Source: Bacillota bacterium (lineage in GTDB: Bacteria; Bacillota; Negativicutes; DSM-13327). From it: a stretch of DNA of 64,000 nucleotides. Where the stretch lies: the NCBI GenBank assembly GCA_017889585.1, contig JAGFZX010000006.1, forward strand, positions 1 through 64,000. Reading direction: 5' to 3'. Under the pieces are notes generated by a model. It was not told the origin of the DNA and did no database searches. It saw nothing but the letters and a program-made list of their open reading frames with translations. Position numbers and translations under genes: made by a program. Positions 2,482-41,573 of the stretch are shown here, in pieces; the stretch's first letter is position 1, and the number at the start of each line of letters is the position of its first letter.

Positions 2482-2844
2482 ATGTCCTTTATCAAAAATA
2501 AAGATTCTAAGACATGGATTAAAATTCTTACTGCTTTATTGATTTTAAAAGTATTAAATAAGCAATCGGCATATGGAAATCAAATAGCAGAAGAAATAAA
2601 AAGGAACACCCACGAAACGATTGAACCCAACCCTAATTTTCTATATCCTCTGCTAAGGGAGATGGAGGAGGCTGGGTACCTTGATGGATATTGGGAGAAA
2701 CCCAATGTTCGTGGAAAAAAATTTTATACAATAACTCAGAGTGGTTATAGCTATTTGCAAACTCTCAAAGAAGTGGTGCACATTAAGTTTTTAGAAATAG
2801 AACGCAGACAACAAGCCATTAGCAAATTTTTATTTGAAGAATAA
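2482..2844 (+). CDS. PadR-family transcriptional regulator
   Basis: 120 aa winged-helix with SAYGNQIAEEI and NPNFLYPLLREMEEAGYL motifs; RBS aggaggt. Confidence 0.9.
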   Translation: MSFIKNKDSKTWIKILTALLILKVLNKQSAYGNQIAEEIKRNTHETIEPNPNFLYPLLREMEEAGYLDGYWEKPNVRGKKFYTITQSGYSYLQTLKEVVHIKFLEIERRQQAISKFLFEE

Positions 2845-2861
2845 TTATAGGAGTGAAGAAT

Positions 2862-3884
2862 ATGAATCAAGAACAGGCGCCAAATAAAAAGAAAAAGTGG
2901 ATGATAGTCGCAGGTGCTTTCCTCGGTATATTTGCCATTGTTGGTGGATGGTGGTGGATGAAATCTAGCGGCATTGTCTCCACTGATGATGCAAGTGTAA
3001 AAAATAATATTGTTAGGATTAGCGCAAAGGTCGCCGGTCAAGTTGAGGAGAGTGTCGTAAAAGAAGGAGATATTGTACAGGTTGGTCAAGTACTCGCGAA
3101 AGTTGATAGTAAGGCATTTCGGATTCAAGTTGAGCAAGCACAGGCAAACTTGGCATCTGCTCAGGCTAAGTTAGATTCTTTGAAAGCTGGAAACCGTCCT
3201 CAGCAGTTAGCTCAATCAGAGGCTTCTGTCGAACAGTCTTCAGCGAGCCTAGAGAATGCTCGTAAAAACTATGAACGGATTGAGGCTTTATTTAATACAG
3301 GCGCAATTTCTGCGCAACAAAAAGATGCTGCCTTTACTGCTTTAAAGGTTGCCGAATCTCAAGAGAAGGCAGCATATCAAGGGTATAGTCTTATCTCCGA
3401 AGGAGCAACAGAACAAGATATTAGATATGCCGAAGCCCAAGTTGCGCAGGCGGTTGCCTCTTTAAAAAGTGCTCAGCTTCAACTCGATAATTCGGTCATT
3501 GTTACACCGATTGCTGGTATTGTTGCGAAAGCACTTGTTGATCAAGGAGAGATCATCTCTGCTGGTCAGCCAATCTTTAGTATTACGAATCCGGATGATT
3601 CCTGGATTGAGGCCAATATTGAAGAAACTGCTATCGGAAAGGTTCAAGTCGGACAAGCAGTAAGTTTCAAGATTGATGCGTATCCAGGAAAAGAGTTCAG
3701 AGGTGAGGTCATAGATGTAGGGACTGCTACTGGTTCTCAGTTTGCGCTACTTCCAGCAGATAATACCTCAGGGAATTTTACCAAAGTGACTCAGAGATTA
3801 TCTGTCAAAATTAAAGTGACCGATGCTGGGAATGCTGTTTTGAAACCTGGCATGTCTGCAGTGGTTGATATTCATGTAAAGTAG
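2862..3884 (+). CDS. HlyD/EmrA-family efflux adaptor (start adjusted from ORF start 2853)
   Basis: N-terminal TM, STDDASVKNNIVRISAKVAGQVEE biotinyl-lipoyl domain, coiled coil. Confidence 0.93.
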   Translation: MNQEQAPNKKKKWMIVAGAFLGIFAIVGGWWWMKSSGIVSTDDASVKNNIVRISAKVAGQVEESVVKEGDIVQVGQVLAKVDSKAFRIQVEQAQANLASAQAKLDSLKAGNRPQQLAQSEASVEQSSASLENARKNYERIEALFNTGAISAQQKDAAFTALKVAESQEKAAYQGYSLISEGATEQDIRYAEAQVAQAVASLKSAQLQLDNSVIVTPIAGIVAKALVDQGEIISAGQPIFSITNPDDSWIEANIEETAIGKVQVGQAVSFKIDAYPGKEFRGEVIDVGTATGSQFALLPADNTSGNFTKVTQRLSVKIKVTDAGNAVLKPGMSAVVDIHVK

Positions 3885-3893
3885 GGGTGTGCT

Positions 3894-5471
3894 ATGAAAT
3901 ATAGTGGTGATAATAAACCCAATAAGTATCTGGTGCTGTTCATTGTATCATTAGGTACTGTCTTGAGCGGTTATGTCAGCAGCTCACTTGACATAGCTTT
4001 GTCTAACATTATGAATACTTTTGGATTCACGATGGATAATGTAACTTGGGTGCTGCTTGCCTATATGATCCCTTATGGAGCAACATTGCCAATTATGGGT
4101 AAGTTGGGAGATCAATTTGGACGTAAGAAAATGTATATTCTCGGTTGTTCGGTATTTACGGTAGCTACTATGATGGTAGGACTGGCCTGGAGCAGTGCGA
4201 CAGTAATATTGTTTCGGATAATACAAGGACTGGGTGCGGGGATGTTTTTTCCTAATGCAATGGCGTTGGTTTCTGACGCTTTTCCACCGAATGAGCGGGG
4301 ACAAGCGTTGGGTATGTGGGGAGCCTTTGCTGCCAGCGGTGCTGTACTAGGCCCGATTATCGGAGGCTATATTGTAGAATACGTAGGTTGGAGGATGCTT
4401 TTCAGTAGTATAGTTCCCATTGCCGCTATTAGCATCTTTCTTGCGTTTTTTGTATTGCAGGAGTCGGAGATAAATGGCTCCGGGGAGCGGATTGATTATC
4501 TTGGTGGATTACTTTTGGTAGCCAGTCTTAGCAGCTTAATTATTGCTCTTAACCAAGGATCAAAAGAAGGGTGGACATCACTATATATCGTAGGGTTGTT
4601 TGCTTGTATGATATTTAGTATACTGGCATTCATTTATGTCGAGAGTCATACTAAATATCCATTAATCAGCCTGGAGCTATTTCAGAATAGTACATTTACG
4701 ATTGCTAATCTTGTTGGCTTTTTAACATTTATGACATTAAACGGCGGCTTGTTTCTGATACCGTTTTTCTTGCGGAACATTCTTGGTTATACTCCGATTC
4801 AGGCAGGACTTTCCTTGTTCCCGCTAATCGGATCACTGATATTATTAGCACCGTTAGGCGGTAAATTGGCAGATAAAGTAGATGCTAGAACGCCGGCTGT
4901 GCTAGGGATGATGATTCTTTCGATTGCGATGTATTCTTTTCATACGATGACCGATCTTACGGCCTATCCGTTTATAGCCCTGCGGCTTATTTTGATGGGT
5001 ACGGGGCTTGCTCTTACGATGTCTCCTTTGTCTAATGCTGCCATGGCAACGCTCCCCAAGGATAAAACCGGAGTTGGCTCTGGGGTGTTCAATTTATTTA
5101 AAAATGTCGGTGGCAGTGTTGGTATTGCCACGATGGGAACGATGTTAGATCAAAGACAGTTATTTCACAAGCAAATTATATCGACACATGTGAATACTTC
5201 ATCTGAGGTTGCCAAACAAACAGTAGCGCAAATTCAGGGGATGTTGGTCCATAACGGAATGACCTCTGAACAAGCCTATGCAGTTGCTATGGCTACTATT
5301 AAAGGTCTTGTGACCAAGCAGGCTGCTATTATGGCTTATAACGACGTTTTTCAAATTACGGCGGGGCTTGCGGTGCTAGGTGTTATCATGGCGATGATGT
5401 TGAAGGACAATAAAAAGATAACTAAGCAGGTCTTTAATTTAGAATCTGAAGATCCGGTTCAGGTAAATTAA
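3894..5471 (+). CDS. DHA2-family MFS drug transporter (EmrB/QacA type)
   Basis: 14-TM MFS with GKLGDQFGRKKMY motif; directly downstream of the EmrA-like gene. Confidence 0.93.
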   Translation: MKYSGDNKPNKYLVLFIVSLGTVLSGYVSSSLDIALSNIMNTFGFTMDNVTWVLLAYMIPYGATLPIMGKLGDQFGRKKMYILGCSVFTVATMMVGLAWSSATVILFRIIQGLGAGMFFPNAMALVSDAFPPNERGQALGMWGAFAASGAVLGPIIGGYIVEYVGWRMLFSSIVPIAAISIFLAFFVLQESEINGSGERIDYLGGLLLVASLSSLIIALNQGSKEGWTSLYIVGLFACMIFSILAFIYVESHTKYPLISLELFQNSTFTIANLVGFLTFMTLNGGLFLIPFFLRNILGYTPIQAGLSLFPLIGSLILLAPLGGKLADKVDARTPAVLGMMILSIAMYSFHTMTDLTAYPFIALRLILMGTGLALTMSPLSNAAMATLPKDKTGVGSGVFNLFKNVGGSVGIATMGTMLDQRQLFHKQIISTHVNTSSEVAKQTVAQIQGMLVHNGMTSEQAYAVAMATIKGLVTKQAAIMAYNDVFQITAGLAVLGVIMAMMLKDNKKITKQVFNLESEDPVQVN

Positions 5472-5651: not shown

Positions 5652-6968
5652 GTGGCAAATAAGACAATACATAAACATCCTTATGAATTTTTTTTAGAGA
5701 GAGAGGATTTTTTTATGATGACTGCTGTTGGCGTTATTATGGTATTTATTACAATTTACTTTTTGATTAAGCGTTATGATGCGCGATTGGTATTATTATC
5801 TTCCGGTATTATTATGGCTTGCGCGGCGGGTACGCCGATGGCTCCCTTGAATGCTTTTGCAAAAGAAATGACCAATGGTGGGCTGATTCAGGCGGTTTGT
5901 TCCGTTATGGGTTTTGCAATGGTAATGAAGTATACAGAATGTGATAAGCATTTAATTAATTTTATGGCAAACGGTCTTTCAAAAGTTCGTCCGCTATTGA
6001 TTCCGGGCGTTGTTTTTGCTACTTATGCGGTCAATGTGGCACTACCAAGTGCTGCAGGAACGGCAGCGGCAGCAGGTGCGATTTTTGTGCCGTTGATGAT
6101 GTCGGCAGGCGTACATCCTGCGATGGCGGGAGCAGCAGTAAAATGCGGTACATATGGCAGTATGCTGAATCCGGGATTGGCGCACAACCCATTTGTTGCG
6201 AAGATTGCCGGTGTGGATGTTATGGACGTTATCGCATTTCACTTTAAAGCGAATATTGCGTCTTTAATTGTAGCAACAATTTTGATTACGCTGATTGCTT
6301 ATTACAAAAAAGAGCATAAGGGGTATAAAGCCGAAGGCTTAGAAGTAGAGGAATCTTTCAAGGTAAATATACTGTATGCGTTGATGCCGATTTTTCCTAT
6401 TCTAATTTTAATTTTAGGTGCAACGTTAATTATTCCGGCATTTAAGATGGATGTTCCGCAAGCCATGATTATCGGTTCATTGATTTCACTGTTGGTAACG
6501 AGAAAAAATCCTGTTAACTTGAGTAATGCATTCTTCGATGGTATGGGGAAAGCTTATGGTGAGATTATTGGTATCATTATTGCCGCAGGTGTATTTGTTT
6601 CTGGCTTGACAGCAATGGGACTCGTAAAAGCTTTTACAGCTGCAATGTTGAGCAATCCGGCAATTGTTAAGGTTTGTGCGGCGGTTGGCCCGTTTATTCT
6701 GGGATTGGTTGTTGGTTCAGGCGACGCGGCAACCTTTGCATTTAATCAAGCGGTTACACCACATGCAGCAGATTTTGGGATGTCAGTGGTGCAAATGGGC
6801 AGTATGGCAACACTAGGCGGTACACTGGGGCGTACGATGTCACCGATTGCCGGTGCTACAATTATCATAGCTGGTATTGCCGGTGTAAATCCGATGGAAA
6901 TTGCGAAACGCAACTGTTTGCCGATGGTGGGAGCTATGATTGTCGGTATGGCATTTTTGCTAGTATAA
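5652..6968 (+). CDS. DcuC-like anaerobic C4-dicarboxylate transporter family protein
   Basis: Polytopic membrane protein with DcuC-like N-terminus and GSGDAATFAFNQAVTPHA region; true start may be 5715. Confidence 0.8.
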   Translation: MANKTIHKHPYEFFLEREDFFMMTAVGVIMVFITIYFLIKRYDARLVLLSSGIIMACAAGTPMAPLNAFAKEMTNGGLIQAVCSVMGFAMVMKYTECDKHLINFMANGLSKVRPLLIPGVVFATYAVNVALPSAAGTAAAAGAIFVPLMMSAGVHPAMAGAAVKCGTYGSMLNPGLAHNPFVAKIAGVDVMDVIAFHFKANIASLIVATILITLIAYYKKEHKGYKAEGLEVEESFKVNILYALMPIFPILILILGATLIIPAFKMDVPQAMIIGSLISLLVTRKNPVNLSNAFFDGMGKAYGEIIGIIIAAGVFVSGLTAMGLVKAFTAAMLSNPAIVKVCAAVGPFILGLVVGSGDAATFAFNQAVTPHAADFGMSVVQMGSMATLGGTLGRTMSPIAGATIIIAGIAGVNPMEIAKRNCLPMVGAMIVGMAFLLV

Positions 6969-7868: not shown

Positions 7869-8019
7869 TACTTATGGGTGAAAAAGTATTTATTTCGGAA
7901 TCAGAATTTATATCACATTTTCGATTCTAAGCAGGTCCAACTAAGGTTTCAGTCTGTGCTGGGGCTTGGCGGAAGCAGGTTTTCTTTATGAATTTTGTGA
8001 AAGAGAGATGATTGCATGG

Positions 8020-8384
8020 TTAGCTATAAGCGATTAGCGGGAAATTTTTAGCGATTATCAACAATAGGCAAACAGGAGGACGGCGGAATTACAACGACTT
8101 GCCTTTAGCGACACGGATTGGGAAGCACGTGAATTAATAATAAAAATTATGAAGCAGGCGGGTCTATAGGTTCGAGTTGATGAGTTTGGCAATCTCATTG
8201 GTCGAAGAGATGGTTTAAGACCTAATGAACCTTTAGTAATGCTTGCTTTCCATATTGATAGCGTTCCTAATGGCGGGAATTATGATGGGGTTGTTGGTGT
8301 ATTAGGGGCGATAGAAGCATTGCAATGTTTAGAGGATAAAAAGGAAAAATATGATCATTCAATTGAAGTAGTTGTATTATGATT
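8020..8384 (+). pseudogene. M20-family N-carbamoyl-L-amino-acid hydrolase (AmaB/HyuC-like) N-terminal relic
   Basis: LAFSDTDWEARELIIKIMKQAGL*VRVDEFGNLIGRRDGLRPNEPLVMLAFHIDSVPNGGNYDGVVGVLGAIEAL, with in-frame stops and an upstream frameshift. Confidence 0.85.
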
Positions 8385-8409
8385 TTGGCATAAAGGATGG
8401 AGATTAGAG

Positions 8410-9714
8410 ATGAATTCAAAAATTTTGAAATTAGCTGAGGCACAGAAAGAAAAAATTATCACTCGTCGAAGAGACTTTCATAACTATGCGGAAGTGGCAT
8501 GGACTGAATTTCGGACGGCTTCTATTGTAGCTGATACCTTGGTTAGTCTTGGCTACCAAGTATTAACTGGAAAAGAAGTGATCAATCAGGAAACAATGAT
8601 GGGCGTACCCTCTTCTGAAGAATTGGAAGAACAAGAGAAAAGGGCCTTACAACAAGGAGCCAATCCAGAATGGATCGCGAAGATGCAGGGAGGTAAGACA
8701 GGGGTTGTAGGTGTAATGAATTTTTCCCAGCCAGGCCCTACCGTTGCTTTTCGTTTTGATATGGATGCCAATGATGTGGTAGAGGCTGAAATAGAAGGAC
8801 ATCGACCTTATAGAGAAGGTTTTGCCTCTGTGAATAAAGGAGCAATGCATGCTTGCGGTCATGATGGCCACACTGCTGTAGGATTGTCTCTTGCTGAAGT
8901 ATTAGTTGGGTTAAAAGATGTATTAAAAGGTACAGTAAAGATCATATTCCAGCCAGCGGAGGAAGGGGTTCGGGGCGCTAAGGCGATGGTAACCCGTGGC
9001 GTGGTAGATGATGTAGACTATCTTGTTGGTATGCATCTTGGTTTTGCCTTGAAGAAAAGTAAGACTGTGACTTGCCAAACGGAAGGATTTTTAGCAACTA
9101 CGAAGATAGACGCAGTATTTACTGGTGTTCCTGCTCATGCAGGTGCTGCACCAGAAGTGGGGCGTAACGCATTACTTGCAGTGGCAACAGCAGCTCTGAA
9201 TCTTCATGCCATTTCTCGTCATAGTAAAGGAACATCACGGATTAATGTAGGATTTATACAGGCTGGAACAGGACGAAACGTAGTACCCGCCAATGCCGTT
9301 TTGAAATTAGAAACTCGAGGTACTAGCAGTGAAATTAATGAATACATGTACAACGAAGCTGTGCGAATTTTAAAAGCCGCAGCTGCTATGTATGATGTTA
9401 CTGTAGAACTTACACAAATGGGTGGCGCTGTTGGATGTGACAGTAATTCAGAGTTGGTAGCAAAGCTTCAACAAGTAGCTGTAGGCAGTGGTTTGTTCGA
9501 TGAAGTTCTACCTTCTGTTAACCTAGGAGGTAGCGAGGATTGTACTTATTTTATGGAGCGTGTCCAGCAAAATGGTGGGCAGGCAACGTATTTGATAGTA
9601 GGAACGGAGTTAATGGCAGGGCATCATGATTCTCATTTTGATTTTAATGAAGATGTCCTTGTTTCTTCTACGGCTTTGCTAGGAGAGATTGCGGCAGAGT
9701 TATTGAAAAAATAA
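8410..9714 (+). CDS. M20-family amidohydrolase (AbgB/aminoacylase-like)
   Basis: HACGHDGHTAVGLSLAEVL, IFQPAEEGVRGAKAMV, GGSEDCTYFM. Confidence 0.92.
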   Translation: MNSKILKLAEAQKEKIITRRRDFHNYAEVAWTEFRTASIVADTLVSLGYQVLTGKEVINQETMMGVPSSEELEEQEKRALQQGANPEWIAKMQGGKTGVVGVMNFSQPGPTVAFRFDMDANDVVEAEIEGHRPYREGFASVNKGAMHACGHDGHTAVGLSLAEVLVGLKDVLKGTVKIIFQPAEEGVRGAKAMVTRGVVDDVDYLVGMHLGFALKKSKTVTCQTEGFLATTKIDAVFTGVPAHAGAAPEVGRNALLAVATAALNLHAISRHSKGTSRINVGFIQAGTGRNVVPANAVLKLETRGTSSEINEYMYNEAVRILKAAAAMYDVTVELTQMGGAVGCDSNSELVAKLQQVAVGSGLFDEVLPSVNLGGSEDCTYFMERVQQNGGQATYLIVGTELMAGHHDSHFDFNEDVLVSSTALLGEIAAELLKK

Positions 9715-9721
9715 AATTATA

Positions 9722-9926
9722 GAATTATAATCCGATAATTGAAGTAACGCCGAGTAGGATAATAATAATGCCTGCAAGTTTGTTGATGCGGACTATGATG
9801 GGCGGTGTCACTCTGTTGCGAAAAAAATATATGATACTGGTGAGGGTAATCCACCAAAGCGTTGAGCCAATAAAGAGCCCTAAAGCGGCTAATACTGTAG
9901 GTACAGTTTCCGGCGCTACCGGCCCC
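9722..9926 (-). pseudogene. LysE/RhtB-type exporter C-terminal relic
   Basis: Minus-strand translation GPVAPETVPTVLAALGLFIGSTLWWITLTSIIYFFRNRVTPPIIVRINKLAGIIIILLGVTSIIGL*; N-terminal part missing. Confidence 0.75.
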
Positions 9927-10141
9927 GGGTACTATTGGCGGCAGTCAAAGAAGGCCTTGACGAGAAATTGATGATTAAAGTAGAAGGTAAACCGGACATA
10001 TATTTAGTGCAAAATGCGTTACTGGTGGCATATCCAGAGTTATCGATTAATACAAAAAATAGTAATTTGGATTTGGTTATTGAAACAACAATTGATCTTA
10101 GTTCTCAGATAAAAGATGTAAAAATAATTGACTTACGTTAA
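9927..10141 (+). pseudogene. Orphan C-terminal fragment of unidentified protein
   Basis: Open frame VLLAAVKEGLDEKLMIKVEGKPDIYLVQNALLVAYPEL...IIDLR* abutting the LysE relic, no convincing RBS. Confidence 0.4.
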
Positions 10142-10250
10142 TTTGATTTAATCTAAATACATTCTTGTTAGGATGGGACTAAGTGCAGAAAGTAGATTTT
10201 CCAGAAGTTAGCATTTAGTGGAGCAATCCTGCTGTATCAGATATGAGAAT

Positions 10251-10292
10251 AAACTCCTGCAAGGTATTCAACTTTGCAGGAGTTTTGTATTT
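10251..10292 (+). terminator. Rho-independent terminator
   Basis: AAACTCCTGCAA/TTGCAGGAGTTTT followed by T-rich tract. Confidence 0.75.
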
Positions 10293-10409
10293 TAATGGTA
10301 AATAAAGTAGAAATAGCAAGTAAGTTAAGAATTTATAGATATAATCTCGCGATACGATCGATGAAATCTGCATTAATTATACTTGCCCATTAGTTTAGGA
10401 GGAAAAATA

Positions 10410-11420
10410 ATGAGAACTAACACTATAAAAATAGTCGCCATTGGCGACTCCATAACCTACGGTTATCCTTACGAGCCAGCATTATCCTGGCTCAATCTTA
10501 CTGCCGAGAGGCTTAACATTGATTATATGAACCAGGGTTTAAACGGTGATATGACTGATGGCATGTTAAATCGTTTTGACTGTGATGTGCTTAGGTATAA
10601 GCCGTCCCACGTTGTCATTATGGGAGGCACTAATGATGCGTATGCTGGAATGACAGTCAATCAAGTCATGAAGAATATTCACCATATGGTGGAGTTAGCA
10701 ATGCAGAAGGGGATCATTCCTATCCTTGGTCTGCCGATACCTTGCAATGACTTAGCAGAAGAGAAGTTGTTAGGGGAGTATCGCACGGAAATGCGCCAAT
10801 ATGCCGAGGAACATAATATTGAGATCATTGATTTTCATAAAAACATAGTCGATGATGATGGAATACACGTAAAAGCAGGGCTGTATTGTGATGACGTTCA
10901 CCCGAGTATAGCTGGATATGAAGTCATGGCTGGCGTTGCAGCTAAATTTTTTGTTAAGGTATTAATTGATGCTAGAGCCCATGATTACTACTGGAAAGAA
11001 GATTTTAGTTGTGCAATTACTACTTTGAAAATACTATCCGAAATATTTAATACTAAGTTTGATCAACAAGTGATGGATGCTGCATTTGGACTTAACGCAG
11101 GCAGATTGGGATCCCAGTGTGGACTGGTGGAAGGAGCATTGATGTTCATTGGAATTTATGGACAGAAAAAAGGGCTTGTTTACCAAGGCATTACTGAATT
11201 ATGTCATACGTTTTCAAGTAGCTTTCAGGTTGAATTTGGCAGCGTTTTATGCAAAAAACTAAGACCCCAGGGATTTAGCCCTGATGATCCCCCTCATCTT
11301 TGTGAAAATATAACTAAGCGTGCTATCTGGTTTTCGACAGAATTTATATCTAAGAACATCGGGCTGGATTTTTCTAATATGTTTATGCTGTCTATCAAAA
11401 GGGATGTACTTTTAGATTAG
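10410..11420 (+). CDS. SGNH/GDSL hydrolase fused to C_GCAxxG_C_C-type redox domain
   Basis: N-terminus IVAIGDSITYGYP, GGTNDAY, DDVHPSIAGYEVMA; C-terminus FSCAITTLKILSEIF...GLNAGRLGSQCGLVEGALMFIGI...FGSVLCKKL; RBS aggagg before 10410. Confidence 0.8.
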   Translation: MRTNTIKIVAIGDSITYGYPYEPALSWLNLTAERLNIDYMNQGLNGDMTDGMLNRFDCDVLRYKPSHVVIMGGTNDAYAGMTVNQVMKNIHHMVELAMQKGIIPILGLPIPCNDLAEEKLLGEYRTEMRQYAEEHNIEIIDFHKNIVDDDGIHVKAGLYCDDVHPSIAGYEVMAGVAAKFFVKVLIDARAHDYYWKEDFSCAITTLKILSEIFNTKFDQQVMDAAFGLNAGRLGSQCGLVEGALMFIGIYGQKKGLVYQGITELCHTFSSSFQVEFGSVLCKKLRPQGFSPDDPPHLCENITKRAIWFSTEFISKNIGLDFSNMFMLSIKRDVLLD

Positions 11421-11538
11421 CATGTATTTAAAAAAATATAATAGCATCTGATTTATTTATAAACTATAAGCTGAAAGTTATTGCTTATTGAAAAAATTTC
11501 CAGTAGTATATAACTATAAAATCAGAGGAGGGGATTGG

Positions 11539-12348
11539 TTGAAACGTGTATTATTAGTATTACTATTCATTGCCATTATTAATGTTGGTTTAATGACTAG
11601 CACGAGTGCGGCTGCCTTTATTGAAAATGAAAACTTCGAAAAGTACTTTAAAGGATTTACCTCCAGTACATTTATTATGTACGATGAAGCTGATGACCGA
11701 TATATAGTTTTTAACGCGACTCAAAGTATAAAACGTTTGTCACCGTGTTCCACCTTCAAAATTTATAATTCACTTGCTGGATTGGAAACTGGTGTCTTGG
11801 ATCAAGAGGATGTATATACTTTGTTTAAATGGAATGGGATGCAATATACATTTCCTGCTTGGAACCATGACCAAACACTGGCGTCCGCGACAAGGGATTC
11901 GGTCGTCTGGTATTTTCAAGAATTTGCATCCCAGATTGGAACTGAAAGAATGCAGGCATATCTTGATAAGATAGAATACGGAAACCGTGATATTTCTGGC
12001 GGATTGACCACATTCTGGCTACGGTCGTCATTGCAGATTTCGGCACGTGAACAAGTGGACTTATTGCACAGACTATACTCGGGGAATTTGCCGGTTTCTC
12101 CCCAAAATGTGGAGATAGTGAAAAAGAATATTACATTGTCGGGAAATGACAATGTACGATTAATGGGTAAAACTGGTTCGGGACTAGAAGATAATAAATG
12201 GCTATTAGGATGGTTTGTCGGCTGTGTCGAAAAACAGGGAAATCGCTATTTCTTCGCTACAAATATTGAAGCATCAGATGGAGCAACCGGTGGAAAAGCA
12301 AGAGAAATTACAAAATTAATATTGAAAGACCTTCAAATCTTAGAATAA
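11539..12348 (+). CDS. Class D (OXA-type) beta-lactamase, exported
   Basis: CSTFKIYNSLAGLE (STFK), IEYGNRDISGG (YGN), KTGSGLEDNKWLLGWFVG (KTG); signal peptide; RBS gaggagg before TTG 11539. Confidence 0.93.
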   Translation: MKRVLLVLLFIAIINVGLMTSTSAAAFIENENFEKYFKGFTSSTFIMYDEADDRYIVFNATQSIKRLSPCSTFKIYNSLAGLETGVLDQEDVYTLFKWNGMQYTFPAWNHDQTLASATRDSVVWYFQEFASQIGTERMQAYLDKIEYGNRDISGGLTTFWLRSSLQISAREQVDLLHRLYSGNLPVSPQNVEIVKKNITLSGNDNVRLMGKTGSGLEDNKWLLGWFVGCVEKQGNRYFFATNIEASDGATGGKAREITKLILKDLQILE

Positions 12349-12474
12349 AAAATTTAGGGTTATTGCTACGTTAACTTGAATCTGGCGAAAACCGAGGCGT
12401 GAAAGTAATTATCCTGCAGGGTGATTCTGTTGGTAAAGAGGTTATTGTGGTTATTTGAATGTTAGGAGGATGTT

Positions 12475-12801
12475 ATGATGCTTGTGAAAAATAAAAGTAA
12501 ACAGTATGTAACGGCTATTGCGGGAGTACGCAGAAAAACTTTGGCAGTTGGTGAAAAAAGTTTACTAGGGGAGTTCGTGCTAGAAGCTGGGGCAATTCTG
12601 CCACCCCATGCTCATCCCCATGAACAAATTGGATACTTAGTTAGCGGTGCACTGGATTTTATTATTGATGGGCAAGAATATTCGGCGAAGCCAGGGGATA
12701 GTTGGGTCATTCCCGGTAATGTAGCGCATACCGCTAAGGCTCTAGAAACATCGGTGGCAATCGAAGTATTTGTGCCAGTTCGCGAGGATTATCGGGATTA
12801 A
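12475..12801 (+). CDS. Cupin-domain protein
   Basis: LPPHAHPHEQIGYLVSGALDFIIDGQEYSAKPGDSWVIPGNVAHTAKA. Confidence 0.9.
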   Translation: MMLVKNKSKQYVTAIAGVRRKTLAVGEKSLLGEFVLEAGAILPPHAHPHEQIGYLVSGALDFIIDGQEYSAKPGDSWVIPGNVAHTAKALETSVAIEVFVPVREDYRD

Positions 12802-12974
12802 TATCTATTAAATACGGGAGTTTATCGTTATTCGCTTGGTAAAAGAAATGAGCAGAGAGTGACGTCTGCGCCGTAAAAACATTAATTTATTTGTATGCGA
12901 TGATGATTTTAATGAGCGATCATCATTTAAAACAAAAATTTCAATGGGGATAGAGAGTAGGCGAAAGCCTACTC

Positions 12975-13016
12975 TTTTCAGGCTGTTGAGAAATAACTTT
13001 CTCAACAGCCTGAAAA
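12975..13016. terminator. Strong hairpin, part of a double hairpin
   Basis: TTTTCAGGCTGTTGAGAAA TAAC TTTCTCAACAGCCTGAAAA, 19-bp perfect stem; preceded by AGTAGGCGAAAGCCTACTCTTTT. Confidence 0.75.
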
Positions 13017-13079
13017 GAACTAATTTTTTTTATTTATCTTAAAATGGGTAAAATATAAAAAAAGAAAGGTGGGGTAATA

Positions 13080-13466
13080 ATGCAGGATTATTGTGGGAAA
13101 AATGGTTGCTATATGTTGGAGTCGAGTGAGGATTTTGATGGTGAGTTCCTTGAAATTTATCTCAATAGTCCGGTTGTTTGTGTTCTTGATGATAATGGTA
13201 GTAGTGTGCGTGTGATAGGTAGTGAGCGCCCCGAACCTGATATAATTTTCGAGATGTTCAAGAATGATGAGGATTGTGTTTTATTAACAGATAAAATGGA
13301 AGTGCCGTCTTTATTTTTACATGGTGTTAAGGAGTTTGTAACAGCATTGTTACAGTATGACAGAGAGGACCTCAGTATAAAAGAGGGGCTTTTACATGCT
13401 GTAAAGGATTTACTAGATAAGGAAGGCGCAGAATGGGGTATTATTCATGAATCAGCAACTGAATGA
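13080..13466 (+). CDS. Hypothetical protein (128 aa)
   Basis: RBS gaaaggtggggtaata before ATG; uninterrupted acidic ORF. Confidence 0.7.
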   Translation: MQDYCGKNGCYMLESSEDFDGEFLEIYLNSPVVCVLDDNGSSVRVIGSERPEPDIIFEMFKNDEDCVLLTDKMEVPSLFLHGVKEFVTALLQYDREDLSIKEGLLHAVKDLLDKEGAEWGIIHESATE

Positions 13467-13801
13467 ATCTATAAATCTTTGAATAGATAAGAGGAGTACA
13501 AATAAGAATGACTAAGACTTGTGCTGGTGTTAGAACTTAGCAAAAGTCGTAGTCATTTTTTATCGTATTAGCAAGATAGGTATTTTTGAAAGTGAGGGTA
13601 ATAGTATACGAAATTCGATTACATTTGATTTGGATTTTTAACTGGAAACCGCTAGACTTGGAAGAAGCTTTGTATATAACGATTCATGGTAAAAATTTAA
13701 ATCTTGCATAGTTTTTTATTTGGAGTGATGTTACAATTTTAGTATTAGGAACAATATTCGATAAATAAATACAAGTGCTCTGTATTAAAGGTGGAAGTGA
13801 T

Positions 13802-14212
13802 ATGAAAACTTATGAGGTTGTTGCTGGAATTATTATTTATCAAGAAGAAATTTTGTGCATGCAACGAAATAAAGGAGATTTTGATTATATTTCCTATAAA
13901 TATGAGTTCCCAGGTGGAAAGATTGAGCCTGGAGAAAGCGCTCTAGCAGCATTAAAGCGTGAATTACGAGAAGAAATGGATATAGATGTTGAAGTAGAAA
14001 ATAATGATTATTTTATGACAGTAGATCATGAATATCCAGATTTCGGGATTAAAATGTATAGTTATATATGCAAAGTTAAAAGTGAAAAATTCAAATTAAA
14101 AGTGCATATTGATTTTAAATGGTTAAAAAAATATGAATTAAAACAACTTGATTGGGCTAAAGCCGATATTCCTATAGTTGATAGACTAATCGAATTTGAT
14201 ATCAATGAATAG
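13802..14212 (+). CDS. NUDIX hydrolase (MutT-like)
   Basis: GGKIEPGESALAALKRELREEMDI Nudix box. Confidence 0.94.
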   Translation: MKTYEVVAGIIIYQEEILCMQRNKGDFDYISYKYEFPGGKIEPGESALAALKRELREEMDIDVEVENNDYFMTVDHEYPDFGIKMYSYICKVKSEKFKLKVHIDFKWLKKYELKQLDWAKADIPIVDRLIEFDINE

Positions 14213-14293
14213 ATTAGGTGATAGCTTGATTAGTGGATTTGATGATGAATATGGATTTAATCAATTATATGATCATTAAGGAGGGTATCGACG

Positions 14294-15421
14294 ATGGCGG
14301 AGCCTTTGAAGGCCGTGTACAATGAGGATTTTTTGCGTCAATTTAGCGAGAGGGTACATGCCGTGTACAATGCTTTTGACAGGTCAGGGTTCATCGGAAA
14401 TGTGATAGACAACACCTGGGATGGACTTGCCTTAAAAGCCCGAATGCGCCGGATCGCCGTAATGCTTGGGAGGTATGTACCGGCCCGGTACGAGGAGGCT
14501 CTGGAGATATTATTCTCTATTGATGAGGATTGCATCGGGTTTCCCTATCTGTTTTTTCCAGAATTCGTGGCAGTGTATGGTCAGGCGGAGGAGCACTGGG
14601 TGCTTTCCATGAAAGCACTCGAACGATTCACGGCGAAGTCGTCGGCAGAATTTGCCGTAAGGTCGTTCCTGCTGCGCGATCCAGCGCGAATGATGTGCCA
14701 GATGGAGAAGTGGTCGAAGCATCCCAATGAGCATGTACGGCGGCTTGCAAGCGAGGGCTGCCGACCTCGTCTGCCGTGGGGAGAGGCACTTTTAATGTTC
14801 AAGCGTGACCCCGCTCCAGTGCTTCGTGTACTCGAACTGCTGAAGGCAGACCCATCCCTTTATGTACGCAAAAGCGTTGCCAATAACTTGAATGATATTG
14901 CAAAGGATCATCCTGCTATCGTGATTGAAACAGCTCGTCGTTGGAAAGGCGTGCATTCATATACGGATTGGATTCTTCGGCAAGGCTGCCGAACTTTAAT
15001 CCGCAAAGCTGATCCGGAGGCCATGGCGCTGTTTGGCTATGGGGAAGCGGTACTTATAACCTACGCTTCATTGTCGGTGGAGCCACCTGTGTTGCCGATG
15101 GGCGGAAGCTGTGAGTTACGATATGAGCTATGTATCCAAGAGGGCGATTCATTACGCATTCGTATTGAATACGGGATTGACTTTGTGAAGTCTAGAGGAC
15201 GCACATCTCGTAAAATGTTTCTGTTGTCGGATAAAACAGTGCCCGGCGGAGCACAACTTAGTTCCAGGCGGACTCATCGCTGGTTGGATCTGACGACTCG
15301 CCGACATTATCCGGGCGAGCACAGGATCTCTTTGTTGGTTAACGGACGTGAAGTTGCTTATACAGTGATGAAACTTGAGGCGGATAATAAGGAGAATGGC
15401 ATTCAAAGGCGATTGCGATAA
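14294..15421 (+). CDS. AlkC/AlkD-like DNA alkylation repair protein (HEAT-like)
   Basis: HPNEHVRRLASEGCRPRLPWG, DPSLYVRKSVANNLNDIAKDHP, WILRQGCRTLIRKADPEAM; C-terminal beta domain. Confidence 0.88.
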   Translation: MAEPLKAVYNEDFLRQFSERVHAVYNAFDRSGFIGNVIDNTWDGLALKARMRRIAVMLGRYVPARYEEALEILFSIDEDCIGFPYLFFPEFVAVYGQAEEHWVLSMKALERFTAKSSAEFAVRSFLLRDPARMMCQMEKWSKHPNEHVRRLASEGCRPRLPWGEALLMFKRDPAPVLRVLELLKADPSLYVRKSVANNLNDIAKDHPAIVIETARRWKGVHSYTDWILRQGCRTLIRKADPEAMALFGYGEAVLITYASLSVEPPVLPMGGSCELRYELCIQEGDSLRIRIEYGIDFVKSRGRTSRKMFLLSDKTVPGGAQLSSRRTHRWLDLTTRRHYPGEHRISLLVNGREVAYTVMKLEADNKENGIQRRLR

Positions 15422-15743
15422 AATTCTCCCAAATAGATTAAATAGTCTTTAGTCAACAAGGGAGGAACTTTGGTAAGTTCAGTAGTGCCTCAGTCGTTCA
15501 TTAGTTATCGATCGAGTGACGTTTCTATTTTAACGGCATAAATAGTAATATAATGATATTTGTCAATATGAAGAATAAAAATGATTTGAAAGTAAAAAAT
15601 TAATGGTGTTAGTATGGAAGAATTGGATTGTAAAATAGTAGTTGATTAATTATCATCTAATATTCTATATATAACCCTTTCTCCAGGCTAAAAATTTTTT
15701 CCTAGTTGGATTAGATAAAGTGAGATTGCTTACAAGGGAGGAT

Positions 15744-15866
15744 ATGGAAATGAAAAAGGTCAATCTAGATACAGCCATAATTATGGGTAATACTGAAGCG
15801 TGGGTGATTCATGATCCTATTGGAAAAGTGCTGAATGAGATTTTGGCAAAGGTTTCACCGTTATGA
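15744..15866 (+). CDS. Small ORF (40 aa) overlapping the HD gene start
   Basis: RBS aagggaggat before ATG; MEMKKVNLDTAIIMGNTEAWVIHDPIGKVLNEILAKVSPL*; ATGA overlap with downstream gene. Confidence 0.5.
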   Translation: MEMKKVNLDTAIIMGNTEAWVIHDPIGKVLNEILAKVSPL

Positions 15867-16489
15867 AGAGAGCAGATGAAAAAAAAGAAAAAATGCAGAT
15901 TTTGCAGTTTGACACCATTTGTCCGATTCTTCAAGACGTAAAGATGCTGGCAAGATACCACAAATATAACGCACTTATTGTACCGACGTTGTACCACGAC
16001 CCTGAGGGAATTCATGGAGTTAGTCATGTTCGACGGACATTACTACTCGCATTATTGATGTCCTATTTAGATAAATTATCTGATCAGCAAGCAGGAATTC
16101 TCGCCTATGCTAGTGTTTACCACGATATTGGGCGGGGGCATGATAGCAAAGATGATGATCATGGTTATCACAGCTATCAAAAAGCAACTGAGCAAGGGCT
16201 ATTAAGCAGGCTCTCAGATAAAGAAGTTCGTATTGTTAAGGAACTTATCGAACGTCATGCCATTGATGATTCTCTAGCTTTCTCTCTTGAGACGGTTGCT
16301 GAAGACATCCGAGATGAAGTTCGATTGTTGCTTAGATACTTTAAGGACTCTGATAACCTTGATCGAGTGAGAATACACGACCTTAATGTAGATTATCTTC
16401 GTACGGAAATTGCAAGGCAAATGCCATTGGTGGCCCAGCAACTTTTGGAGGAATTTTCAGGTATTATACAAAAAATGGGATCTGCTTGA
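15863..16489 (+). CDS. HD-domain phosphohydrolase-like protein
   Basis: HGVSHVRRTLLLALLM, YHDIGRGHDSKDDDHGYHS. Confidence 0.88.
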   Translation: MKRADEKKEKMQILQFDTICPILQDVKMLARYHKYNALIVPTLYHDPEGIHGVSHVRRTLLLALLMSYLDKLSDQQAGILAYASVYHDIGRGHDSKDDDHGYHSYQKATEQGLLSRLSDKEVRIVKELIERHAIDDSLAFSLETVAEDIRDEVRLLLRYFKDSDNLDRVRIHDLNVDYLRTEIARQMPLVAQQLLEEFSGIIQKMGSA

Positions 16490-26312: not shown

Positions 26313-26419
26313 TTATAGTAACAGAAATCAACTAAATCTGTCTGAATAGGGCGATTTTCTTTTGCAGGAATTTATTATCTTTTGCCGAAGTCTTTAAAAA
26401 AAATAGAGGAGGCGTTAGT

Positions 26420-26605
26420 ATGGCTGGGGCCCCGATTATTTGGATAAATGGTGACAAGAGTGAACAAATAGTATATTTCAATAATGAATATGTCTTGATA
26501 ACAATAACCGACATGAAAAAAATATCCCTTGGAGAAACCTTGGAGGCGGCGAAAGAAAAGTTAAAAGAGATTGGCAGATATGATATCTATAAACAGCTAA
26601 ACTAA
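26420..26605 (+). CDS. Small conserved protein (61 aa), copy 1
   Basis: RBS gaggaggcg; near-identical paralogue at 40723-40908 with shared flanks. Confidence 0.75.
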   Translation: MAGAPIIWINGDKSEQIVYFNNEYVLITITDMKKISLGETLEAAKEKLKEIGRYDIYKQLN

Positions 26606-26623
26606 GTATCATCTAAAAGTTAT

Positions 26624-26645
26624 GCGTCCTGCGGGGCGCTTTTCT
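26624..26645 (+). terminator. Terminator of small gene copy 1
   Basis: GCGTCCTGCGGGGCGCTTTTCTT. Confidence 0.6.
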
Positions 26646-26929
26646 TATGTATTAAAAAGTAATAGTTAACGACGTTCATAACAAATTGTAGTTTTCCCTA
26701 GTTATTTATTAAATGTAAAGTATGTTATGCTGGTTATCAATTGTTACATGTATTGGTTAAATATGGTAGCTATGCTTCGGAATATTGTTTTGAAAGGGCG
26801 GGAGCATGGCTAAAGAAGATGCAACAAATCATAAACGGAAGACCCCCAAAACTTATAGATAAGTTAGGAAGTCTTCCTTGAATTAGTAATCAATTAGAAG
26901 TTTCAATTAAATTAAGTGGTAATATTTTT

Positions 26930-40650: not shown

Positions 40651-40722
40651 TAATTGTATTCCTTTTAAGGGATTTGTTTACTTTTCGCAAAGTCTTTCAA
40701 GAAATATAGGGGAGGCGATAGT

Positions 40723-40908
40723 ATGGCTGGAGCTCCGATTATTTGGATAAATTGTGACAAGAGTGAACAAATAGCGTATTTCAATAATGAATATGTCTTG
40801 ATAACAATAACCGATATGAAAAAAATATCCCTTGGGGAAACCTTGGAGGATGCGAAAGAAAAGTTAAAAGAGATTGGTAGATATGATATCTATAAACAGT
40901 TAAAATAA
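40723..40908 (+). CDS. Small conserved protein (61 aa), copy 2
   Basis: MAGAPIIWINCDKSEQIAYFNNEYVLITITDMKKISLGETLEDAKEKLKEIGRYDIYKQLK, paralogue of 26420-26605. Confidence 0.75.
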   Translation: MAGAPIIWINCDKSEQIAYFNNEYVLITITDMKKISLGETLEDAKEKLKEIGRYDIYKQLK

Positions 40909-40926
40909 GAATCATCTAAAAGTCAT

Positions 40927-40949
40927 GCGCCCTTCGGGGCGTTTTTTTT
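40927..40949 (+). terminator. Terminator of small gene copy 2
   Basis: GCGCCCTTCGGGGCGTTTTTTTT. Confidence 0.85.
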
Positions 40950-40950
40950 T

Positions 40951-41050
40951 GGTGCGCCCAGCATGGGCGCTTACTTGTTGTTGAAAGTCTAATACGGGAG
41001 TCGATAGTGCTAACCGCTAGCCAATGTCAAGGGTGTCCACAGAGTGGTGG
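40951..41050 (+). mobile_element. Group II intron 5' end (domain I fragment)
   Basis: GTGCGCCCAGCATGGGCGC...AACCGCTAGCCAATGTCAAGGGTGTCCACAGAGTGGTGGATGAA, characteristic of bacterial group II intron 5' ends. Confidence 0.85.
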
Positions 41051-41226
41051 ATGAAATAGGCGAATCCCTAATGGAATTCGCCCCTCCCCGAACCGTATGG
41101 GCATTTTTCGATGGATACGGCTCTCCATTCCTATTAAGCTTTCGTTTAAAGATATTAGATTGATTTACAGCACATCTTACATATGGGAATCTGCCTACGA
41201 TTAATGCGAATCATATACTCGATGAT
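41051..41226 (-). mobile_element. Group II intron 3' end (IEP C-terminus relic, domain V/VI), inverted
   Basis: Minus strand: MIRINRRQIPICKMCCKSI* (IEP HNH-like tail) then GAGCCGTATCCATCGAAAAATGCCCATACGGTTC (domain V) and a GGCGAATTCC/GGGATTCGCC stem (domain VI-like). Confidence 0.8.
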
Positions 41227-41573
41227 AAAAGTAATAGCTGAGGACGTTCATAACAAATGTGTAAGGCAAATGGGCATGAGGGAGGAGACCTTTAGCAAAG
41301 AACAGTTAATTGACTGACCGCTCATGAAACTACTTTACAGTATTATATTCTATGACTGATATATTAGTCTTGGGCGTGTATGGAAATATTAGTACGAAAA
41401 GTATATATTTTGAGATATATACTTTTTAAAGATTATTTACAATACGGCAGGAATTGTATTGTTTTATGGGGAAATGATACCAATAGACGCTTGTGAAGGC
41501 TAATAAAAATGCTACGAACATGCTTTAGCTTTTGGCTTTGTTTGATTTTATAGGGTGAAGGAGAGATATAAAA

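Follow-up and report, generated by a model that had tools for sequence, protein, structure and literature searches.

We analysed a window of 64,000 nt from a contig of a Bacillota bacterium (Negativicutes), and we are highly confident that it holds the dead remnant of a nested pair of group II introns, in which intron B was inserted antisense into intron A and the pair was later deleted internally. A first-pass annotation, made from the letters alone, had described a group II 5′ end on the plus strand, followed by the tail of an intron-encoded protein (IEP) and domains V and VI on the minus strand. It noted that little of the IEP is left and predicted no intact catalytic RNA. All of this was confirmed. 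The Rfam search of the 64-kb window returned one gathering-level match, the group II domain V/VI model RF00029 at 41125-41051 on the minus strand (46.1 bits, E = 7e-6), with domain V at 41123-41090. Two borders were adjusted: the GTGCG start of intron A is at 40952, not at 40951, and the strand switch, placed near 41051, is at 41050/41051. The right end of the relic is at 41223-41226, and its total length is 276 nt. The features are given below, with a slash at the insertion point of B here and in the following text.

40723 to 40908, plus strand: small ORF of 61 aa upstream of the intron relic (ORF list)
40927 to 40950, plus strand: terminator-like hairpin GCGCCCTTCGGGGCG and T-run, the 5′ exon of intron A (read directly)
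40952 to 41050, plus strand: first 99 nt of intron A, a class C-type group II intron, to the B target site in domain I (identity to A 5′ ends)
41050 to 41051, no strand assigned: insertion junction of B in antisense A, minus strand CTATTTCAT/CCACC (recurrence and complete nest)
41051 to 41089, minus strand: domain VI region and 3′ end CTATTTCAT of intron B (RF00029; intact B ends alike)
41090 to 41123, minus strand: domain V hairpin of intron B (RF00029 match)
41155 to 41226, minus strand: last 23 codons and stop of the B IEP, IIEYMIRINRRQIPICKMCCKSI (tblastn to the 580-aa B IEP of locus L130)
41216 to 41223, plus strand: putative deletion scar TACTCGAT, common to the antisense B IEP and to the 3′ terminus CTACTCGAT of A introns
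26357 to 26690, plus strand: paralogous region without the intron, for empty-site comparison (matches 40659-40949 and 41227-41263)

The plus-strand half (40952-41050) showed 81-89% identity to the opening ~100 nt of introns in the same and related genomes (82-89% for those of many Negativicutes), and its intact relatives run on into RF02001 domains. The nearest uninterrupted A intron is only about 87% like the window copy, in which the ORF of A is gone. On the minus strand, the IEP tail showed 84% identity over 19 residues (551-569) of the 580-aa homologue in L130 (tblastn). The B IEP family ends naturally soon after the CxxC motif; thus, what had been called an HNH-like tail is indeed C-terminal and is not itself cut there. 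The local intron copy is dead. A palindromic domain VI hairpin that mimics an antisense match was considered and rejected, because, in several loci, the minus-strand homology extends beyond it through domain V and into the IEP tail. In addition, a circularly permuted intron was rejected because the parts lie on opposite strands. Natural circularly permuted group II introns (PMC8637638) also have an unusual domain order, but their domains are reordered on one strand, whereas the relic joins parts of two introns on opposite strands.

The two halves belong to different families. Intact B matches RF00029 at 64.6 bits, and its IEP contains RVT_1 and Intron_maturas2 domains and is closest to LtrA (E = 5e-81). 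The A IEP of L130 has RVT_1 and GIIM only, with no match for the En domain, as in class C, and its best structural relative is the GsI-IIC RT (E = 3e-118). Thus, A (GsI-IIC-like) and B (LtrA-like) are introns of different classes. The first-pass annotation had also considered two copies inserted in opposite directions; the opposite insertion stands, and copies of one kind do not. Other A copies likewise follow a hairpin and T-run, and insertion after a terminator is expected of class C introns. The B IEP of L130 (662-2404, minus strand) keeps the C-x2-C ... H ... C-x2-C pattern of the HNH-like C-terminus and, by eye, is without the last histidine stretch of LtrA, so its endonuclease may be reduced.

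Other group II introns were seen around these families. On contig C69 of the same genome, the stretch 8000-16000 is apparently a cluster of several introns: group II domain V was matched twice (59.6 and 34.4 bits), and part of an A 5′ end and an RF02004 domain are also present. Furthermore, a third group II intron is represented by its 3′ end (domains V and VI, ending in CTACTCTAC), which adjoins the 3′ strand of domain V in two Desulfosporosinus B introns (L136, the same as L052 and L101; L049, the same as L102) and domain V of a sister intron, B′, at L127. The position of the joint, directly before GCYCRTRCGG, and the orientation are the same in all three. This suggests that yet another intron homes into domain V of B, although the 5′ side of this third intron was not found.

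The fusion at 41050/41051 is a precise and recurrent insertion junction of B in domain I of A, not a breakpoint. About 14 further loci have the same junction. With the fused stretch as query, a DNA search located GGTGG/ATGAAATAGGCGAAT on contig C61 of the same genome and in three other genomes (G008, G313 and G316); G316, another Negativicutes genome, carries the identical junction. When 85,462 genomes were scanned for the pattern, it was located in Desulfosporosinus species, Heliobacterium mobile, Pelosinus (UBA6563) and Sporomusa silvacetica; the pattern is short, and several matches in unrelated phyla, lying inside other sequence, are due to chance. The minus-strand 3′ end CTATTTCAT is identical in the window and in intact B relatives, so the joint is the exact 3′ boundary of B in antisense A. 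Uninterrupted A introns continue past this site as AATCTGAAGGAAG. In a BLAST search of plasmids, only the A 5′ end was matched, and the fused element was not found. In H. mobile (L055, L057 and L058), the contig with the B 3′ end is covered ~121x, and those that begin in A are covered 41-44x (values from the record titles); this roughly threefold coverage suggests about three nested copies.

A complete nest was also found. In Desulfosporosinus sp. HMP52 (L169), A begins at 2480 after a hairpin and T-run and occupies 2480-2579, B follows at 2580-4879 on the minus strand with an open IEP of 580 codons, and the remainder of A, with the A IEP and domain V, runs from 4880 to near 6684. When the A flanks were joined, they showed 92% identity over 498 nt to an A of that genome that is uninterrupted, and no gap fell at the site. 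A second full-length B within A was found in Desulfosporosinus sp. OT (L066). In L130, the insertion is exact: B starts with GTGCG, the A flanks join gap-free against uninterrupted A, and there is no target duplication. As in a twintron, one group II intron lies within another; the inner intron of a twintron has the orientation of the outer one, whereas B runs antisense to A in those loci that were examined. Neither intact B nor the other intact parent was found in the 84%-complete assembly of the genome from which the window comes. Therefore, the local history is read from the relatives.

The outer borders of the relic were compared with a paralogue in the window. In a self-BLAST, 26357-26690 and 40659-40949 showed 88.7% identity over 291 nt. 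The upstream part (40659-40949) pairs with 26357-26646, the sequence from 41227 pairs with 26655-26690, and the relic is missing from the paralogue. Because the intron-less flanks resume at both ends, the outer limits of the relic are those of a single insertion. The duplicated segment (26357-26690 and 40659-41263) carries the 61-aa ORF and the terminator, with the relic in one copy and none in the other. At the right border, the homology to B stops at 41226 (blastn). A introns of related genomes (L039, L040, L047 and L048) end in CCTACTCGAT, and the antisense B IEP of L066 reads ATACTCGATGATGGG, i.e. ATACTCGATGAT, at the scar region. The window has TACTCGAT at 41216-41223 and then flank, an 8-bp microhomology. 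The simplest reading of these sequences is an internal deletion at the 8-bp microhomology. Thus, the deletion named in the first-pass annotation is kept and moved: it would lie at 41216-41226, where the B IEP meets the 3′ end of A, and not at 41050/41051. Other relics (C61 and L064) also retain A-derived sequence beyond a shortened B, and the truncation points of B differ among loci. Truncation of the B 5′ side by incomplete reverse transcription was not supported as the sole cause, since the continuation of A is absent after the truncation point in the window and in the other truncated loci examined.

How B recognises its target can be predicted from the intact copies. The target in domain I of A is the conserved motif GGTGG/AATCTGAAGGAAG, and B would insert antisense at GGTGG/AATCTGAAGG. 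The 5′ exon of B is antisense A ending in CTTCCT-T-CAGATT directly before the insertion point. A predicted EBS1, AATCTG, lies at position 239 of B in the loop of a predicted stem and would pair with CAGATT (IBS1); a candidate EBS2, AGGAAG, chosen by eye at position 189, could pair with CTTCCT (IBS2). Each of the two motifs occurs once in the first 316 nt of B. In the sister introns B′ at other sites, the equivalent loop differs and pairs with their own 5′ exons in three of the clear cases, exactly in L138 and with one G-U wobble each in L094 and L139; L107 shows no simple fit, and L137 is truncated in the loop region. In searches with queries that held no A sequence, the 3′ ends of the B clade had A as the 3′ exon, and one of them (L049/L102) had CCACCT only and then diverged. 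About 20 B′ 3′ ends were followed by varied exons other than A.

From these data, a history in three steps is proposed. As the anatomy of the relic suggests, a class C-type intron A would have inserted on the plus strand after the terminator at 40927-40950. An LtrA-like B then entered A by retrohoming, antisense and at the domain I motif, guided by the predicted pairing of EBS1 (AATCTG-CAGATT) and probably of EBS2 (AGGAAG-CTTCCT); relatives and one complete example show this step. Finally, judging from the sequence, a deletion between two copies of TACTCGAT, one in the antisense B IEP and one at the A 3′ terminus, would have spared only the first 99 and the last few nt of A and removed the remainder of B as well, and the 276-nt relic would be left.

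Other origins were weighed against this history. The first of the two readings in the first-pass annotation was an inversion-deletion scar of a single group II intron. Such a scar would explain why the two ends face opposite ways and why most of the IEP is lost, but the ends belong to different families, and they meet precisely at the last (3′) nucleotide of B, as they do in about 14 other loci, one of them with both introns complete. We therefore give a single-intron scar hardly any credence. A nested origin could also have left the relic through template jumping of the reverse transcriptase during mobility of A or B rather than through deletion of DNA. The right border coincides exactly with the A 3′ end, the expected starting point for target-primed reverse transcription of A, and the 8-nt overlap would be available for a jump. 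However, an A RNA that carries antisense B should not splice, which makes its reverse-splicing unlikely, and the right borders of other relics are unrelated. Template jumping is thus an improbable route, if a less remote one than the single-intron scar.

The recurrence of the junction might also reflect copies of one ancestral fusion, moved or inherited as a chimeric unit, rather than repeated targeting. Several loci have a 5′-truncated B, as if a short fused unit existed, and some neighbouring genomes share similar A flanks. Against this, we compared 22 uninterrupted and 16 interrupted A flanks: those beside B belong to several A subfamilies, and most are nearer to an uninterrupted A than to any interrupted one. 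For example, the L070 flank is 95% identical to the intact L159 and 74% to any interrupted flank, and the L052 flank is 97% identical to an uninterrupted A and 89% to an interrupted one. This points to several independent insertions. Furthermore, the truncation points vary by locus, and intact B has its own IEP and predicted exon pairing. Thus, we consider a fused unit very unlikely, and insertion of B into A followed by internal deletion is the preferred origin of the relic.

Nested group II introns are already known, including in bacteria, and in the cases found, as far as the sources consulted cover them, they lie in intron ORF regions. In Thermosynechococcus elongatus, TeI3 introns are inserted in TeI4 introns as twintrons (Mohr et al. 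2010, PMC2882425). There, as with B, a group II intron with a dedicated EBS enters a conserved site of another intron repeatedly and independently and so proliferates. However, the inner intron of T. elongatus has no ORF, is placed between the first two ATGs of the ORF region and is spliceable (PMC2882425), whereas B is antisense, has its own IEP, lies in domain I of the outer ribozyme and, by its orientation, would not be spliceable from the A transcript. Nested group II introns were also described in Methanosarcina acetivorans (Dai & Zimmerly 2003, as described in PMC4424553). They resemble B and A in site-specific homing into other group II introns and in the loss of copies by deletion; they are archaeal arrays of related introns that home into intron ORFs, whereas B is a bacterial LtrA-like intron with an antisense target in the RNA domain of a class C intron. 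The insertion of class C introns downstream of intrinsic terminators is also known (Robart et al. 2007, as cited in PMC4424553). Intron A is like them in its GsI-IIC-like IEP, the lack of an endonuclease domain match and its position after a hairpin and T-run; unlike the class C introns described there, it is also the target of another intron. In the open-access literature searched, we found no report of antisense insertion into domain I, and the search for group II introns of Desulfosporosinus found nothing.

As B is antisense, the A RNA cannot splice it out, and B should thus inactivate A. The B lineage, as far as found, occurs only in A-type introns at this domain I site; judging by its relatives in other bacteria, one of them complete, the family specialises in targeting, and presumably disabling, other introns. 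We lean, with some reserve, towards B as an obligate hyperparasite, whose EBS would be fixed on the antisense of a conserved domain I stretch and which would spread by inserting into class C introns of Negativicutes, Desulfosporosinus and Heliobacterium and thereby disable them; both the silencing of A and the obligate dependence of B on A are what we infer. If this is true, antisense targeting of the conserved ribozyme sequence of another class would be a clear case of parasitism of one retroelement on another. A conserved RNA motif as the target would offer many sites that cannot easily mutate away, and the predicted EBS-IBS pairing makes the targeting of A by B directly testable. For annotators, the case is also a caution, since apparent tail-to-tail intron relics can be precise insertion junctions.
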